Of a stretch of DNA of 64,000 nucleotides, positions 50,829-57,034 are shown piece by piece. Each line of letters opens with the position of its first letter. Position 1 is the stretch's first letter. The stretch lies in NCBI RefSeq assembly GCF_029212375.1, contig NZ_JARGNU010000011.1, positions 62,001 through 126,000 of the forward strand. The letters run 5' to 3'. The position numbers and the translations under genes are program-made. This stretch comes from Zhongshania sp. Lineage in GTDB: Bacteria > Pseudomonadota > Gammaproteobacteria > Pseudomonadales > Spongiibacteraceae. Under the pieces are notes generated by a model, which saw nothing but the letters and a program-made list of their open reading frames with translations, did no database searches and had not been told where the DNA came from.

Positions 50829-52614
50829 TCCCATTAGCCTTGCCCGCACCCACTACGCCACAGCGAGCACCACCCAGCCTATGAAGCGACATTCAGCCCA
50901 CCGCCACTTTGGCGCACTGCAATTGGTGCTTATTTTATTCAGCATACTAAGCGGCATGCCAAGCGCGTTTGCCGACACCAGTGTGCGCGCCAGTGTTGAT
51001 CGCAACCAAATATCCAGCGAAGAAACCTTTATATTATCGCTGGTCGCCGACAGTATTTTATTCACTGACGAACCCGACATCAGCGCGCTGGAAAATGATT
51101 TTCACGTTATTAGACGCCAGCAAAGCAGCCGCACCAATATCATCAACGGCAAGGTAAATAGCAGTCGCCAATGGGACTACACCCTCGCCCCCAAGCGCGA
51201 GGGCAATTTAACCATCCCCGCCATTACGATGGGCAAATACCAGACCAGGGCGCTGACCATATCCGTGAGCAAAGCGAGCAGCCAATCGCGGGGCAGTAAT
51301 GGCGACAGCGTGTATTTAGAATCCGACGTCACCCCGCGCTCAGCCTATGTGCAGGGTGAGCTGCAATACACGGTGAAAATCTTTACCTCGGTGAATTTCT
51401 TAGACGCTTCGTTAGAAGCACCCGAAGTGGATAACGCGGTAATTGAAGCCACCGGCGAGCAGCGTTATCAAACCTTGGTAGACGGCCGCTACTACCAAGT
51501 TATTGAACGTCATTATTCAATCTATCCGCAAACCAGTGGCGACCTGACAATTCCGGCACTTACCTTGCAGGCGCGGGTTGAGGGCTATCGACCGTCAATG
51601 CTCGACCCTGGCCGCCTCGTAGTAAAACGTAGCCAAGAACATCGACTCAAAATTATGCCGCCACCAGCAGAGTTTAAGGGCGCAGTGTGGTTGCCCGCCA
51701 AGGAGTTAGTGCTCAATGAAAACTGGAGTAAAGACCCCGACAATATTCGAGTTGGCGACTCCATCACCCGCACGGTAAGTATTCAGGCCGACGGTTTACT
51801 TGGCTCGCAGTTACCGAGTTTGCCCATTTATACATTGAGCAATGCCAAGCTCTACCCCGACCAAGCCAAGATAGAAAAAGGCGACGAACAGTCGAAATGG
51901 ACCGGCATCCGCAGCGAGTCGATGGCGATTATTCCCACCAAAGCCGGCGAATTTATTCTGCCCGAGGTGCGGATTCCCTGGTGGAACACCAAAACCAACA
52001 AAGCCGAAGTAGCCGTCTTAGCCGAGCGCCGCATTACGGTGAGACCGGCACTACTCGGCAATGGTAATACCGAAGCCACACCAAACAACTTGGCGGCAGG
52101 CGGCACCGGCCAAGCGGCCAACACAGCGAGCAATCCGAACCCCAATAATGACGACGCAACGAGCACCGCTACCAGCCCGCTACTGTGGTCGCTTATCGCC
52201 CTGCTCTGCCTCAGCAATGCCGCGTTTGCCGCTGCGTGGTATCGCGCTCGCCACAGCACGCTAAACGCTGCCAACAGCAACAAAGCAGAGGGAAAAACAA
52301 CGAGTGAAAGCCAGGCATTTAGCCAATTGAAAAAGTGTGTGCAGAGCGACGCCACAGCGCCAGTGCTGCGCTCGGCCTTAATTCACTGGGCGCAGGCTCA
52401 TTACCAGCAGAGCTTAAGCCTAAGCCAATTGGCGCAGCGCGCCAGCGAATTAAAACCCTATTGCGATGCCCTTGATGCCCAATTATTTTCCCAGCAAGGT
52501 GGCGGAGTCGACCCCAATGCGCTCCTTGAAGCGGTTAAATCCCTGCGCGGTAGAGCCGCCAAAAGGAGCGCAGAGACCGCCCCATTAGCGCCACTGTATC
52601 CGTCTAAGGTTTAA
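50815..52614 (+). CDS. BatD-like protein
   Basis: This is 599 residues. ATG 50815 follows an excellent ribosome site (GGGAGGA) inside the end of the previous gene (14-bp overlap). The secretion signal begins only near residue 23 (MKRHSAHRHFGALQLVLILF), so the second ATG at 50881 is possible but has no ribosome site. The periplasmic part has the BatD start DTSVRASVDRNQISSEETFIL and beta-sandwich repeats. One transmembrane helix is near 460-480, and a cytoplasmic tail follows. It closes the operon and meets the convergent transporter gene with a 4-bp overlap of stops. Confidence 0.92.
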   Translation: MRLINPISLARTHYATASTTQPMKRHSAHRHFGALQLVLILFSILSGMPSAFADTSVRASVDRNQISSEETFILSLVADSILFTDEPDISALENDFHVIRRQQSSRTNIINGKVNSSRQWDYTLAPKREGNLTIPAITMGKYQTRALTISVSKASSQSRGSNGDSVYLESDVTPRSAYVQGELQYTVKIFTSVNFLDASLEAPEVDNAVIEATGEQRYQTLVDGRYYQVIERHYSIYPQTSGDLTIPALTLQARVEGYRPSMLDPGRLVVKRSQEHRLKIMPPPAEFKGAVWLPAKELVLNENWSKDPDNIRVGDSITRTVSIQADGLLGSQLPSLPIYTLSNAKLYPDQAKIEKGDEQSKWTGIRSESMAIIPTKAGEFILPEVRIPWWNTKTNKAEVAVLAERRITVRPALLGNGNTEATPNNLAAGGTGQAANTASNPNPNNDDATSTATSPLLWSLIALLCLSNAAFAAAWYRARHSTLNAANSNKAEGKTTSESQAFSQLKKCVQSDATAPVLRSALIHWAQAHYQQSLSLSQLAQRASELKPYCDALDAQLFSQQGGGVDPNALLEAVKSLRGRAAKRSAETAPLAPLYPSKV

Positions 52615-53489
52615 GCGCGGTGCTCAGGTTCTGGCGGATTGCGCAATACCAGCACGCCGCCTATCACCACGCACACAATGCCGACAAGGGTTAGTTGGTC
52701 GGGAATATGATCCCAAATCAGCCAATCTAAAAGGCCGCTAAACACCACCGCAAAATAGCTGATCGGCGCCGACACCGACGCCGAAATATAGCGGTAGGCC
52801 AAGGTATAAAGCACAAAACCCAAATAAATCACCACGCCCATATACAATAAGCCCAGCCACGCCGAGCTGGGAATGGGCTGATAATTAAATAGGAAGAAGG
52901 GCAGGCTAACGATGACCGAAATTAAAAAATAGTAAAACAAAATTCTATTTTGAGGCTCGCCCTGCATTAATTCGCGGGTGCTCACCATCGACACCGCCAA
53001 TCCCAGCGCCGACAACAAGGCCAAGACATGCCACAGGCTAAAGCCGGCAAAACCCGGCTTTAGTACCAGTATTACCCCAACAAACCCCACCACCAAGGGC
53101 GGCCAGGCATGGCGGCTCACTCGCTGCTTAAACCACAGTAAAAGCACCAATGGCACCATCAGTGGCGCCGAGGCCCGCAACAAGGTCGCCTCAACCAGTG
53201 CGATATGCGTTAGCGCGAGGTAAAACAAATAGAAACACGCACAGCCGCTAATGCCGCGAATTAAGTGTAAACCCGGCCGCGTAGTCACTAGGCCCGCTCG
53301 CCCAGAGCGTAATATAGCGGGCAGCGCAAACAGAAAGCTTAGGCCGTACTGCACCATAACAATGCTAGAAACATGGACTTCTTGGGAAACGTGCTTACCC
53401 ACCGCCGCCACCGTACTGGATAAAAACACGGTAATTAACGACAGCGACAATCCAGTTAGCAATTGCTTTTGAGGGGCAGAAATAATCAA
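52611..53489 (-). CDS. EamA/DMT-family transporter
   Basis: This is 292 residues with about ten hydrophobic helices in two repeated halves, the drug/metabolite transporter build. GISGCACFYLFYLALTHIALVEATLLRASAPLMV is the usual first EamA repeat centre. The substrate is unknown; relatives export amino acids, nucleobases or small metabolites. It is a single gene, convergent with the Bat operon. Confidence 0.9.
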   Translation of the reverse strand: MIISAPQKQLLTGLSLSLITVFLSSTVAAVGKHVSQEVHVSSIVMVQYGLSFLFALPAILRSGRAGLVTTRPGLHLIRGISGCACFYLFYLALTHIALVEATLLRASAPLMVPLVLLLWFKQRVSRHAWPPLVVGFVGVILVLKPGFAGFSLWHVLALLSALGLAVSMVSTRELMQGEPQNRILFYYFLISVIVSLPFFLFNYQPIPSSAWLGLLYMGVVIYLGFVLYTLAYRYISASVSAPISYFAVVFSGLLDWLIWDHIPDQLTLVGIVCVVIGGVLVLRNPPEPEHRA

Positions 53490-53597
53490 TGACTAATCTC
53501 TAAAGTCCGGCAGATAGCACACCCACCTCGCCGAGGCAGTATTAGGCTGGCACTATAAAGAGAGCGCTGGCATTTAGCCAGTCCGTAATGGGGACGC

Positions 53598-53640
53598 AAA
53601 AAAGCCCGCAACCCACGCAAGATCACGTGGGTGCGGGCTT
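53598..53640 (-). terminator. Strong terminator after the HvfA-like gene
   Basis: AAGCCCGCA-ACCCACG pairs with CGTGGGT-GCGGGCTT, a stem of about 16 bp around a short loop. The minus-strand transcript ends in six U. It lies 25 bp after the stop of the gene at 53665. Confidence 0.88.
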
Positions 53641-53664
53641 AGTCATGCCAATATGAAGCGAAAT

Positions 53665-54009
53665 TTACTTGTTAGCGCCGCACTTGGCTTCGCCACATTT
53701 GCCTTCTTTAGCGGCTTTATCGGCGCCACATTTGGCTTCAGCAGCCGCTTTATCGGCGCCGCATTTAGCTTCGCCACATTTGCCTTCTTTGGCCGCCTTA
53801 TTAGCACCACACTTGGCTTCTTTGGCCGCTTTATCGGCGCCGCACTTAGCTTCACCACATTTGCCTTCAGCGTCTTTGGCGTAATTCGCCAACTGATAGC
53901 CACTGCTCATTACTTTGGCGGCAAAGGGGTTGGTATCAGCTACAGCAACTGAGGCCATAGAAGAAGCGAGCATTGCCGCACCAAACGCAGTCATTGCAGT
54001 TTTTTTCAT
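53665..54009 (-). CDS. hvfA: HvfA-like Cys-repeat RiPP metallophore precursor
   Basis: This is 114 residues. A signal peptide is cut after A24 (VAVA/DTNPF). NPFAAKVMSSGYQLA matches the conserved leader of HvfA proteins. Residues 48-114 are 2.5 copies of a 27-residue repeat with eight cysteines (51, 56, 67, 78, 83, 94, 105, 110), each in EGKCG or EAKCG. In HvfA peptides the cysteines of such motifs are converted by an MNIO (DUF692) enzyme and its HvfC partner into copper-binding groups. Neither gene is in the window. The gene is divergent from an HvfX/DoxX gene and shares with it a pair of ECF-type promoters, and it has its own strong terminator. Confidence 0.82.
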   Translation of the reverse strand: MKKTAMTAFGAAMLASSMASVAVADTNPFAAKVMSSGYQLANYAKDAEGKCGEAKCGADKAAKEAKCGANKAAKEGKCGEAKCGADKAAAEAKCGADKAAKEGKCGEAKCGANK

Positions 54010-54071
54010 GTTGTCGTCACCTTGATAAATTAATTGTTTAAATTGGTCGCCGTATGACGACTCTGCTCATT

Positions 54072-54098
54072 AGAGGTATTCCACCAGCCAGTGTTACA
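54072..54098 (-). promoter_or_regulatory. ECF-type promoter for the HvfA-like gene
   Basis: On the minus strand TGTAAC (54098-54093), 16 bases, then CCTCT (54076-54072). The -10 is about 63 bp from the start codon at 54009. It mirrors the plus-strand promoter at 54130. Confidence 0.62.
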
Positions 54099-54129
54099 AA
54101 CCCCGCAAAAATAATTCACTCTTTTTTTC

Positions 54130-54156
54130 TGTAACAAGTTTGCCCGCCCTGCGTCT
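54130..54156 (+). promoter_or_regulatory. ECF-type promoter for the HvfX gene
   Basis: TGTAAC (54130-54135), 16 bases, then CGTCT (54152-54156). The box sequences and spacing are those expected for an ECF sigma factor, and a sigma gene lies 80 bp after the hvfX stop. The -10 is 55 bp upstream of the hvfX ATG. Confidence 0.65.
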
Positions 54157-54211
54157 CATTGCCAATCGTACAGCACAAGCTGCATTGCCAATATTCTACG
54201 GAGTTTAGTTC

Positions 54212-54841
54212 ATGGTAGATTTTTTTAACTACGTAAACCGCAGTCAAGATTACATCGCGCGCGCATTTCGGCCCCTCGACGGACTGCCAGCCCTTGGCTT
54301 AAGGCTGTATTTGGTGCCCGTTTTTTGGATGGCAGGCAGCAGCAAAATGGCGAGTTTTAGCGCCACTGCCGAGTGGTTTGGCAACCCTGACTGGGGCTTG
54401 GGGCTGCCCTTTCCCACCCTGTTAGCATTTTTAGCCACCGCCACGGAGCTAGCCGGCGCACTGTTGCTATTGTTAGGCCTTGCAACCCGTTGGATTGCCA
54501 TTCCCCTCGCGATCACCATGATTGTGGCGGCATTGAGCGTGCACTGGCAATTTGGCTGGCAGGCCATTGCCGATGCCAGTGCGCCCTTTGCCAACGAGAG
54601 AGTTGTGGAATCGGTAGACAAACTCGCCGCGGCCCGCTCGCTACTCGAGGCCCACGGCAATTACGACTGGCTCACGTCGAGCGGCAATATTGTTATTCTC
54701 AATAACGGCATTGAGTTTGCTGCGACCTACCTAATAATGCTACTGGCTCTAATCGCCTTAGGCGGCGGCCGCTATGTGAGCGTCGATTACTGGCTAAACC
54801 GCAAATTTCGGCCGGTGTTAACGGATAAAACGAGTCATTAA
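54212..54841 (+). CDS. hvfX: HvfX-like DoxX-family membrane protein
   Basis: This is 209 residues with four hydrophobic helices of the DoxX/SURF4 type: GLRLYLVPVFWMAGSSKM near residue 30, TATELAGALLLLLGLATRWI near 75, IMLLALIALGGGRYVSVDYW near 180. The longer central loop (about 112-155) is usual for the HvfX branch found with HvfA/B/C copper-RiPP genes. It may supply redox or export functions for the modified peptide at the membrane. It is divergent from the HvfA-like gene, followed by the sigma/anti-sigma pair, and likely in one transcript with them. Confidence 0.82.
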   Translation: MVDFFNYVNRSQDYIARAFRPLDGLPALGLRLYLVPVFWMAGSSKMASFSATAEWFGNPDWGLGLPFPTLLAFLATATELAGALLLLLGLATRWIAIPLAITMIVAALSVHWQFGWQAIADASAPFANERVVESVDKLAAARSLLEAHGNYDWLTSSGNIVILNNGIEFAATYLIMLLALIALGGGRYVSVDYWLNRKFRPVLTDKTSH

Positions 54842-54921
54842 ACTTTATTTTTACAGTAAATTGCCGCCGCTTGGTTGCGTGCACACAGGGGGATCAGTGA
54901 CACTATGGGCTTAATCTGGGT

Positions 54922-55548
54922 TTGGATGCCACAGTGCCACAGTCTGTTATTGATCAACAGTTTATTGAGCGCCTGCAAGCCGGTGACAATAGCGCCTTTA
55001 AAACGCTAATCAGCATTTATCACAGCAAGTTGCTAATTGTTGCTAGAGCGATCGCGGGCGATGTGTTTGCCGAAGATGTAACCCAAGAGGCATGGGCATC
55101 TATTTACAAGGCCATTGGCAAATTTGAGGGGCGCTCGAGCCTGTCGACGTGGATGATTCAAATTGTAAGTAACGAGGCCAAGTCGCGGCTGCGGCGAGAA
55201 AAACGTCACAGTAGCTATGGGGATATTGACGACATCCAAACCAGTGTCGACCCAGCCAATTTTGACAGCAGCGGCCACTGGAGTAGCCCGCCGTCGCGCT
55301 GGGAAATAAACACCCCAGAGTTAATGCTACAGGAAGACCAATTGCGCCGCTGTATAGAGCACACCTTAACGATATTGCCAGAAAACCAAAAGGCGGTGTT
55401 TTTATTGCGCGATGTTGAACAAACCGAATTGAATGATATCGCCGAAATTCTCGCCATTAGCGAAGCCAATGTGCGGGTTATTTTACACCGCGCCCGCCTC
55501 AAACTTATGGCCGTCATTAACCACTACCAGGAGACCGGGGAATGCTGA
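54922..55548 (+). CDS. ECF-type RNA polymerase sigma factor
   Basis: This is 208 residues. Region 2 has AGDVFAEDVTQEAWASIYKAIGKFEGRSSLSTWM near residue 45, and region 4 has LPENQKAVFLLRDVEQTELNDIAEILAISEANVRVILHRAR near 155. A longer linker than usual separates them. No ATG is available in frame: TTG 54922 is used here, and GTG 54934 is an alternative. The stop overlaps the anti-sigma start by 7 bp. It probably drives the two TGTAAC-N16-CNTCT promoters upstream, making a self-contained stress-response unit. Confidence 0.92.
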   Translation: MDATVPQSVIDQQFIERLQAGDNSAFKTLISIYHSKLLIVARAIAGDVFAEDVTQEAWASIYKAIGKFEGRSSLSTWMIQIVSNEAKSRLRREKRHSSYGDIDDIQTSVDPANFDSSGHWSSPPSRWEINTPELMLQEDQLRRCIEHTLTILPENQKAVFLLRDVEQTELNDIAEILAISEANVRVILHRARLKLMAVINHYQETGEC

Positions 55549-55793
55549 ACTGCCAACAGTTTACCGATCTCGCCAGCGACCATCTCGACGAGCAATGCCG
55601 AGGCTGGAAACGCATTGATATTCGTCTGCATCTTATTATTTGCCGGCACTGCCGACGCTTTAACCGCCACCTAGACCGCAGCCGCCGCACCGGCGCAACG
55701 CTGGCTAAGCAACTCTGGCGAACTGACGCTGCCAGCAGCGAGAAAATTTTCTCTAACATTCAGCAAACGAACAAGCCAACTGGCGACAGCTAG
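55542..55793 (+). CDS. Zinc-finger anti-sigma factor (short)
   Basis: This is 83 residues. A zf-HC2-like zinc motif HLIICRHC (HxxxCxxC) lies near residue 30, after a start MLNCQQFTDLASDHLDEQ typical of such proteins. No membrane helix follows, so it would be a soluble redox or metal-sensitive anti-sigma rather than a membrane-anchored one. It overlaps the sigma gene by 7 bp and meets the convergent kinase gene with a 4-bp overlap. Metal or oxidant release of the zinc is a plausible trigger. Confidence 0.82.
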   Translation: MLNCQQFTDLASDHLDEQCRGWKRIDIRLHLIICRHCRRFNRHLDRSRRTGATLAKQLWRTDAASSEKIFSNIQQTNKPTGDS

Positions 55794-57034
55794 CTAAGTT
55801 CGCCAGCCGGTAAATATACGCGGAACTCGGCACCTTTGCCCAACTCACTAACAAGCTCAATACGTCCTTCATTTTCCTCAATAATTCGCCGGCATATGGC
55901 CAAGCCTATTCCGGTGCCTTCGTAAACTTCCTCGGCGTGAAGCCGCTCGAACACCCCAAAAACCCGTTGATGATAAGGGCTGGCAATACCAATTCCGTTA
56001 TCGCGAATAAAAAAGCCGACCTCGCCGTCATTCACCACGTCTAACGGTCCAATTTCGATTATTGGTGGCTGCTGATTGCGACTAAATTTAACCGCATTCC
56101 CTAAAAGCTCGGAGATTAATTGATGTAAAGCTGGCGGTGATATATTAACCACCCCCAAGGGCTGCCGGCGCAATTGCACGGCGTATTTTGTTAGGCTCGC
56201 GTTGTGTTCAAAAATGACACGGTCAAAATACACATCCAGCTCAATGGCACCAGACGGCACCAGCGAATGCGACGCGCAGTATTTTTGTAGATCGTCGATC
56301 ATCACTGTCATGCGCTGCGCGGAGCTAACCATGGTTTGCAGCCACTTAGACTCATCCTCACCCAAACTCTCAAGCAGCCGCTCATTTAATAATTGACCAA
56401 ATACCGAAATCGAGCGTAATGGCTCTTTAATATCGTGGGCGGTTACTCGCGCGTATTCTTCCAAGGCGGCATTTGAGCGCTCGAGTGAGGCATGATTTTT
56501 TTCCAGTAAAGTTTTCATCACCCGCGTTTCGGCCAGCTCTTTGGTGCGCTCAGCAATCAGCGCTTCCAAATCTTTCGTTAATCCCTCTACTTGCTGCTTT
56601 TGTCGGCTATTTTCCTCGGCCTCATCACGAAGTTGTTGATTCAGCGCCAGTAATTGAACATTACTCGGAATGGCCAAGGCTTTTGGTATTAATGGCCACA
56701 CCATTATTGCGGTGCCCACCGAGGCGATGGCGGTTATCAATTTTACGCTGCCACTTAGCCAGTACGCGCCGTACCAAACATTAAATATATTAATCAGGTG
56801 AGTCGCGCCACAGGCAAATATGAATATCGCAAACATAACAAAAATATAATTAAATTTGAGATCGTCGCGCTTGCGCACCAGATAAACCAGCGCCAGAGGA
56901 ATGGTGAAATACGATAAACTAATCAAGGCATCACTAATCACATGAAGACGAACCAAGTCTTCATTCCACAAATAGCAATGACCATGAGGGGGCATCTCGG
57001 GCCCCAATAATTTTGTTAAAAATCCGTTATTCAT
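55790..57034 (-). CDS. Sensor histidine kinase with ETR1-like ethylene-binding membrane domain
   Basis: This is 414 residues. The N-terminus has three helices (about 30-55, 62-85, 93-118). Asp35, Tyr42, Cys75 and His79 lie in VISDALISLSYFTIP and ACGATHLINIF, and spacing from Asp to Cys (40) and Cys to His (4) equals that of plant ETR1 (Asp25, Cys65, His69), where Cys and His hold Cu(I) and ethylene binds. A coiled coil of about 60 residues follows, then HisKA with TAHDIKEPLRSI (His200), and HATPase_c with NAVKFSRN, DNGIGI and GTGIGLAICRRI. No GAF domain is present. It lacks an adjacent response regulator. It is convergent with the sigma/anti-sigma genes. Confidence 0.88.
   Translation of the reverse strand: MNNGFLTKLLGPEMPPHGHCYLWNEDLVRLHVISDALISLSYFTIPLALVYLVRKRDDLKFNYIFVMFAIFIFACGATHLINIFNVWYGAYWLSGSVKLITAIASVGTAIMVWPLIPKALAIPSNVQLLALNQQLRDEAEENSRQKQQVEGLTKDLEALIAERTKELAETRVMKTLLEKNHASLERSNAALEEYARVTAHDIKEPLRSISVFGQLLNERLLESLGEDESKWLQTMVSSAQRMTVMIDDLQKYCASHSLVPSGAIELDVYFDRVIFEHNASLTKYAVQLRRQPLGVVNISPPALHQLISELLGNAVKFSRNQQPPIIEIGPLDVVNDGEVGFFIRDNGIGIASPYHQRVFGVFERLHAEEVYEGTGIGLAICRRIIEENEGRIELVSELGKGAEFRVYLPAGELS

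Follow-up and report, generated by a model that had tools for sequence, protein, structure and literature searches.

A captophorin/oxazolin (Hvf) system split between two loci in Zhongshania and probably run as a single ECF regulon

The stretch analysed here, referred to as the window, comprises 64,000 nucleotides (contig C6:62001-126000) of the 3.8 Mb genome of Zhongshania sp., which is assembled in 29 contigs and is designated G000. It carries hvfA1, a gene for a cysteine-rich, probably copper-binding precursor peptide, and, divergent from it, genes for the membrane protein HvfX, an extracytoplasmic function (ECF) sigma factor and an anti-sigma factor. Neither a gene for a maturase of the multinuclear non-heme iron-dependent oxidase (MNIO) type nor one for its DUF2063 partner is present in the window. 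Both are found on another contig, behind the same type of promoter, and the two loci probably constitute a split Hvf system that is run as a single ECF regulon and in which HvfA1 is modified in trans. The features of the locus are listed below, in window positions.

53605-53627, reverse strand: terminator-like hairpin and T run, 3' of hvfA1 (consensus scan, weak)
53665-54009, reverse strand: hvfA1, precursor peptide of 114 amino acids (NF050137 match and motif counts)
54072-54098, reverse strand: ECF-type promoter of hvfA1, TGTAAC-N16-CCTCT (genome pattern match C6:116072-116098; matrix score 19.1)
54130-54156, forward strand: ECF-type promoter of hvfX, TGTAAC-N16-CGTCT (genome pattern match C6:116130-116156)
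54212-54841, forward strand: hvfX, DoxX-family membrane protein of 209 amino acids (NF050144 and DoxX profiles)
54922-55548, forward strand: ECF sigma factor of 208 amino acids, TTG start (Sigma70_r2 and Sigma70_r4_2)
55542-55793, forward strand: anti-sigma factor of 83 amino acids (zf-HC2 and NF052368)

The initial annotation of this DNA had recognised an HvfA-type precursor beside a divergent HvfX/DoxX gene followed by sigma and anti-sigma genes and had noted that MNIO and DUF2063 genes are missing from the window; coordinates and profile searches agree with this description. HvfA1 matches the HvfA family domain NF050137 with 91.4 bits (cut-off 19.5) and stays below the narrow HvfA equivalog NF050188 (39.6 bits, cut-off 95). 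Its N-terminus consists of a signal peptide, as judged by eye, and the leader NPFAAKVMSSGYQLA; the pattern NPF...GY of this leader is common to the precursors of both loci. The eight cysteines lie in three EGKCG and five EAKCG motifs. The 27-residue period claimed for them is real, but it is not strict, as 37 of 41 core residues (90%) match at this lag. HvfX scores 233.9 bits against NF050144 (cut-off 80) and 76.5 bits against DoxX. The sigma factor is of the ECF type, with regions 2 and 4 present and 99.7 bits for the sigma70-ECF superfamily; its gene, 80 nt from hvfX, is probably co-transcribed with it, so that the hvfX promoter probably also serves the sigma and anti-sigma genes. The anti-sigma gene overlaps the sigma gene by 7 nt, and its product matches zf-HC2 (24.0 bits, cut-off 22.2) and NF052368 (55.1 bits, cut-off 50) and reads H-x3-C-x2-C at residues 30-37. 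A small anti-sigma factor with this motif adjoining an ECF sigma factor constitutes a zinc-finger anti-sigma (ZAS) / ECF pair, and this is the arrangement found in the window.

The absence of a maturase from the window had been a concern in the initial annotation, and it was dispelled by profile searches of the whole genome, which gave a single match for MNIO (DUF692; C1:391260-392042, PF05114, 332.1 bits) and a single match for DUF2063 (C1:392123-392383, PF09836). These belong to what is likely an operon on contig C1, encoding a second precursor, HvfA2 (173 amino acids, 12 cysteines), the MNIO HvfB (294 amino acids) and the DUF2063 protein HvfC (248 amino acids). HvfB passes the equivalog NF003818 (419 bits, cut-off 360) and HvfC passes NF050145 (306.5 bits, cut-off 142), and the HvfA domain matches of the genome are confined to the places of hvfA1 and hvfA2. 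All the parts of an Hvf system, namely an E-x-K-C-G precursor, HvfB, HvfC and HvfX, are therefore present by profile. The hvfA2 gene adjoins hvfB, whereas hvfA1 does not, in contrast to the usual, though not obligatory, Hvf arrangement. Another maturase or bufferin type was considered for this genome and rejected, because the DUF2282 precursor of the Buf1 type has no match in it; three of the 21 genomes of the family have one (G012, G003 and G002), located by position beside extra MNIO matches.

Both loci share an ECF-type promoter, first spotted by eye as TGTAAC-N16-CGTCT before hvfX and hvfA2-hvfB-hvfC and as TGTAAC-N16-CCTCT before hvfA1. For the combined pattern TGTAAC-N16-CSTCT, the genome holds five exact matches (three for the reversed control pattern), which lie upstream of hvfX, of hvfA1, of hvfA2-hvfB-hvfC and of a gene for a DUF1223 protein, and inside one coding region. 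This last match, at L070:1501-1527 (G000:C29:145763), is on the opposite strand within a lipoprotein-like open reading frame (ORF), and a near-identical one in G018 perhaps reflects conserved coding sequence. For comparison, 21 genomes of the family were used, of which 18 belong to the window's genus; these relatives do not represent independent observations in the promoter counts that follow. TGTAAC-N16-CGTC precedes hvfX in all 16 hvfX-sigma loci of the genus, and the 16 promoters were used to build a matrix, whose background of 122,880 window positions, taken from this genome only (50% G+C; 48 to 58% in the relatives checked), has a maximum of 12.7. This maximum was exceeded by 14 of 14 upstream regions of hvfA1 (13.0 to 20.2) and by 19 of 21 maturase upstream regions, taken as up to 950 nt before the MNIO match. 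At the two hvfX loci lacking hvfA1, the same strand has no such element (-8.2 in G014 and -0.7 in G019), and none of 128 window blocks of 950 nt reached 12.7. According to the initial annotation itself, a maturase gene elsewhere with the same promoter would make this a split but ordinary Hvf locus, and that is the arrangement observed. The split system is thus a layout variant of a known one.

The distribution of the genes bears on the modification in trans. An MNIO match is present in all 21 genomes, and 16 of the 18 genus genomes have the hvfX-sigma-antisigma locus, with the sigma gene directly beside hvfX (the exceptions are G015, with no HvfX match, and G020, with a joined locus). The hvfA1 gene is found at 14 of these 16 loci, and an HvfA gene accompanies the maturase in 14 of the 18 genomes. 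Ten genomes hold HvfA at both loci, four at the hvfX locus only (G011, G012, G016 and G018), four at the maturase locus only (G014, G015, G019 and G020), and none at neither. In the four genomes with hvfA1 only, the best promoter match, which is weak in G016, is situated 124-164 nt before the MNIO match, no HvfA-type gene was found in between, and the profile search revealed no further HvfA domain; for G018 it gave none at all, and the HvfA-like gene there was recognised by reading the locus. In three of the four (G011, G016 and G018) there is only one MNIO, and DUF2282 is without a match. This pattern of presence and absence, in which a maturase operon lacks its own precursor and the sole E-x-K-C-G precursor found is encoded at the hvfX locus, argues for modification in trans. 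In a tree of the MNIO proteins the four genomes form two pairs, both supported by an ultrafast bootstrap of 100%, and two changes are needed on this tree. Among the options raised by the initial annotation, modification in trans is the one favoured, while modification by something else and metal binding without modification are not favoured.

It had also been suggested that the prevalence of EAKCG over EGKCG in HvfA1 may alter the modification. This proposal was rejected, since EAKCG is also present in the product of hvfA2 (six EGKCG, five EAKCG and one EAQCG) and since the natural FonA fragment SGEAKCGEGKCGEK is described as losing 4 Da at each Lys-Cys motif, so that EAKCG is modified there (PMC13097082); the motif mix gives no reason to expect a different chemistry. 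In the comparison of motif ratios among relatives, the 14 hvfA1 genes sum to 57 EGKCG, 46 EAKCG and 7 ESKCG, and the 17 maturase-side HvfA genes of the family to 98 EGKCG, 50 EAKCG and 1 ESKCG, variant motifs being outside these counts. At the hvfX locus the mix ranges from ten of ten EGKCG (G011 and G012) to zero EGKCG (G016).

Gene content, the shared and conserved promoter and the presence/absence pattern are direct observations, and a regulatory circuit can be proposed from them. Copper or oxidative stress, as the presumed signal, would cause the zinc-finger anti-sigma factor to release the sigma factor. Promoters of this one type would then allow it to transcribe hvfX-sigma-antisigma and hvfA1 as well as hvfA2-hvfB-hvfC at the distant locus. 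HvfB and HvfC would modify the cysteines of HvfA2 and, in trans, of HvfA1 in the cytoplasm, and the peptides, exported by Sec, would buffer copper in the periplasm together with HvfX. The reading of this promoter by the sigma factor is deduced from their linkage; the modification of HvfA1, its chemistry, the metal and the signal are inferred as well.

Several points weigh against a single regulon with modification in trans. Two maturase upstream regions remain below the background maximum (10.6 in G016 and 9.7 in G020), and these scores are weak, at levels that occasionally arise by chance within 950 nt, at least 10 being reached in 5 of the 128 blocks; G016 is, moreover, one of the four genomes on which the argument for trans modification was built. 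The background positions were drawn from the window only. There is no genome-wide excess of the promoter, as the CGTCT form has 51 exact matches in the 21 genomes and its reversed control has 63, so the promoter evidence lies solely in the location of the matches, 15 of which precede hvfX, 8 the maturase operon and 9 the DUF1223 gene, with 19 elsewhere. In G012, a second, divergent MNIO is encoded beside a DUF2282 gene. The supported branches of the MNIO tree, taken alone, are compatible with a single loss of hvfA2. Finally, HvfA1 may be exported unmodified.

This last point leads to a rival explanation that we regard as unlikely, namely that HvfA1 is an unmodified cysteine-rich metal-binding protein that retains the family leader, HvfA2 being the only true substrate of HvfB and HvfC. 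It would fit the absence of MNIO from the 1.5 kb flanks of all 16 hvfX-sigma loci, and the possibility that unlinked precursors are not modified is left open in the literature (PMC12452194). However, HvfA1 agrees with HvfA2 in leader and motifs, and the two genes have the same promoter type. Under this explanation, G011, G016 and G018 would have kept a lone maturase without a recognised substrate, given that no other E-x-K-C-G or DUF2282 precursor was matched in these genomes (the Buf2 and CxxxxC types were not searched for).

According to a second rival, which we consider about as improbable, the promoter common to the loci is an element of general envelope stress that a different sigma factor recognises, and its linkage with the sigma gene of the window is incidental. 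The presence of the same promoter before the DUF1223 gene would agree with it, and the sigma comparison covers only the ECF sigma factor of the window. Further evidence on this question comes from named hvfX loci, the best 80 of at least 593 pattern stretches, some of them short, of which 53 have an MNIO match in the stretch and 27 do not. Among those with MNIO, the element scores at least 12.7 before MNIO in 20 of the 27 loci with a sigma match within 7 kb, but still in 5 of the 25 without one (one further locus is too short). Among those without MNIO, such a score before hvfX is reached in only 4 of the 10 loci with a sigma match, versus 0 of the 17 without. With lower cut-offs of 10 and 9.5, picked after the scores had been seen, these counts become 24 of 27 versus 5 of 25 and 8 of 10 versus 1 of 17. 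The element goes with a nearby sigma match. In agreement with this, it is absent from the regions before the sigma and hvfA genes of G020, whose sigma factor is divergent (40% identity to that of the window genome). In that genome, sigma, anti-sigma, hvfA, hvfB, hvfC and hvfX form one joined row (L072:3227-6852), and the MNIO, 61% identical, sits on a long branch; the locus was perhaps acquired from another lineage.

An artefact by which the assembly into 29 contigs would have separated neighbouring loci can practically be dismissed, because the single-contig genomes G004, G014 and G018 keep them ~1.87, ~0.26 and ~2.26 Mb apart, respectively, so the assembly does not account for the split.

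The layout of the window (hvfA, hvfX and sigma, without MNIO) recurs in two named loci that extend for 10 kb in either direction, those of Zhongshania sp. BJYM1 and Spongiibacter marinus; L137 is another such locus but says little because its contig is only 3.8 kb long. BJYM1 is the closest named relative by HvfX among the 80 loci (75%), records very near the window having possibly been left out, and this similarity probably places the window in Spongiibacteraceae. Three loci from Simiduia, Gilvimarinus and a Pseudomonadales metagenome-assembled genome (L096, L111 and L124) have hvfX, a sigma match and a TGTAAC-N16 element (scores 9.6, 19.5 and 22.5), with no MNIO or HvfA found within ~10 kb, and are possible further split systems. 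In L075-L079, L081, L083 and other Acinetobacter loci, hvfX and hvfA are divergent like in the window, but MNIO is present together with a sigma factor of weak similarity behind hvfA, and promoter-like matches read TGTAAT-N16-CGTCTAA before MNIO and TGTAA(G/T)-N16-CGACTAA before hvfX. With identities of just 27 to 35%, the sigma matches of the Acinetobacter loci may represent other ECF sigma factors. Identity of the sigma factor with SigAb of Acinetobacter was rejected, as the -35 (GTCAAC) and -10 (CGTT) elements described for SigAb differ (PMC12153292).

In the vicinity of hvfA1, an ORF named by eye as an EamA/drug-metabolite transporter (DMT) type protein lies downstream (52611-53489, reverse strand), and a homolog is found in the hvfX flank of 12 of the 16 hvfX-sigma loci, including that of G014, which lacks hvfA1. 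A DMT-type gene is also described beside rpoE2 of Haemophilus influenzae (PMC7907618). The hairpin behind hvfA1 is a weak call, because 12 terminator-like sites were obtained in 52400-56000, where shuffled sequences gave a mean of 5.4.

The DUF1223 gene with the hvf-type promoter (L067:1501-2361; G000:C3:273691 onward) encodes a protein that matches the DUF1223 profile with 149 bits (cut-off 30.7) and has a CSSC thiol motif, and, judging from its upstream sequence, is probably a further member of the regulon. Relatives are present in 12 of the 21 family genomes, this one included; nine of the 12 upstream regions exceed the background maximum, two come near it (12.2 and 11.5), and one, from another genus, is without the element (2.6). 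In one of the nine, G006, the gene behind the promoter has two in-frame stops. A literature search retrieved no prior link of DUF1223 to copper or to a sigma factor, although part of it was swamped by unrelated papers. By contrast, a second HvfX-family protein (L071:5305-6243 on contig C5, reverse strand; NF050144, 198.6 bits) was not accepted as part of the system, as the 12-kb stretch around it lacks an exact match to the promoter pattern and none of the 10 ortholog upstream regions examined (out of 16 such genes) matches the matrix (best 2.9). Its neighbours, putatively MoeB/ThiF-, PrmC-, PrfA- and HemA-like, are housekeeping-like surroundings. Passing the HvfX family profile is no proof by itself of a role in peptide maturation. 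As a tentative extension of the split regulon, one maturase pair might serve two specialised, unlinked precursor paralogs, of which lineages keep both or either, and the DUF1223 protein might be a new regulon partner acting on the peptides or on their copper.

A DoxX-containing gene cluster of H. influenzae that is reported to be governed by RpoE2 is presumably the hvf cluster, judging by its gene content. Its COG3767, COG3220/UPF0276 and DUF2063 genes are reported to be RpoE2-regulated, RpoE2 has an anti-sigma factor of 67 amino acids, and the locus tags place the cluster away from rpoE2 (PMC7907618). The Hvf/oxazolin system of that species (hvfA, hvfB, hvfC and hvfX) has the same parts by profile as the one described here, in which, however, the precursor occurs twice, one copy being encoded apart from hvfB and hvfC, next to the hvfX, sigma and anti-sigma genes. 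Traits of the former are 5-thiooxazole on cysteine and copper binding, which are presumed for the latter. The captophorins fontiphorin, oxazolin and gonophorin share with it precursors with Lys-Cys 5-mers and an MNIO with a DUF2063 partner (PMC13097082), as does bulbicupramide of Microbulbifer, whose mmrA-B-C cluster is presented, unlike the window locus, with no mention of sigma or DoxX in the main text of that report (PMC12538549). Joined sigma-antisigma-hvfA-B-C-hvfX loci, like that of G020 and several named ones of Pseudomonas and Acinetobacter, hold the same genes within ~4 kb, but the maturase is not split off as in the window genome. Buf1 bufferins (DUF2282) are likewise MNIO-modified precursors with signal peptides and accompanied by sigma-factor genes, although their anti-sigma factor is NrsF (PMC12452194), a family that is not among the Pfam matches of the window anti-sigma factor, which matches zf-HC2. 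The same source describes many precursors unlinked to MNIO genes, which might be modified from another locus or not at all, and reports Buf_EGKCG genes in 2,583 genomes, 67 of which are without MNIO (PMC12452194). Unlinked precursors are therefore already known, and what is new here is the link through the promoter, the pattern of presence and absence and DUF1223 as a probable further member; our literature search found no earlier report of the split regulon, the promoter link or this pattern.

The split system makes modification in trans directly testable, and the genus offers natural test cases for the E-x-K-C-G precursors, in the form of lone maturases for which the only precursor recognised is encoded at a distant hvfX-sigma locus. 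The promoter, in turn, can be used to match other unlinked precursors with their maturases and to uncover additional pathway components like the DUF1223 gene.

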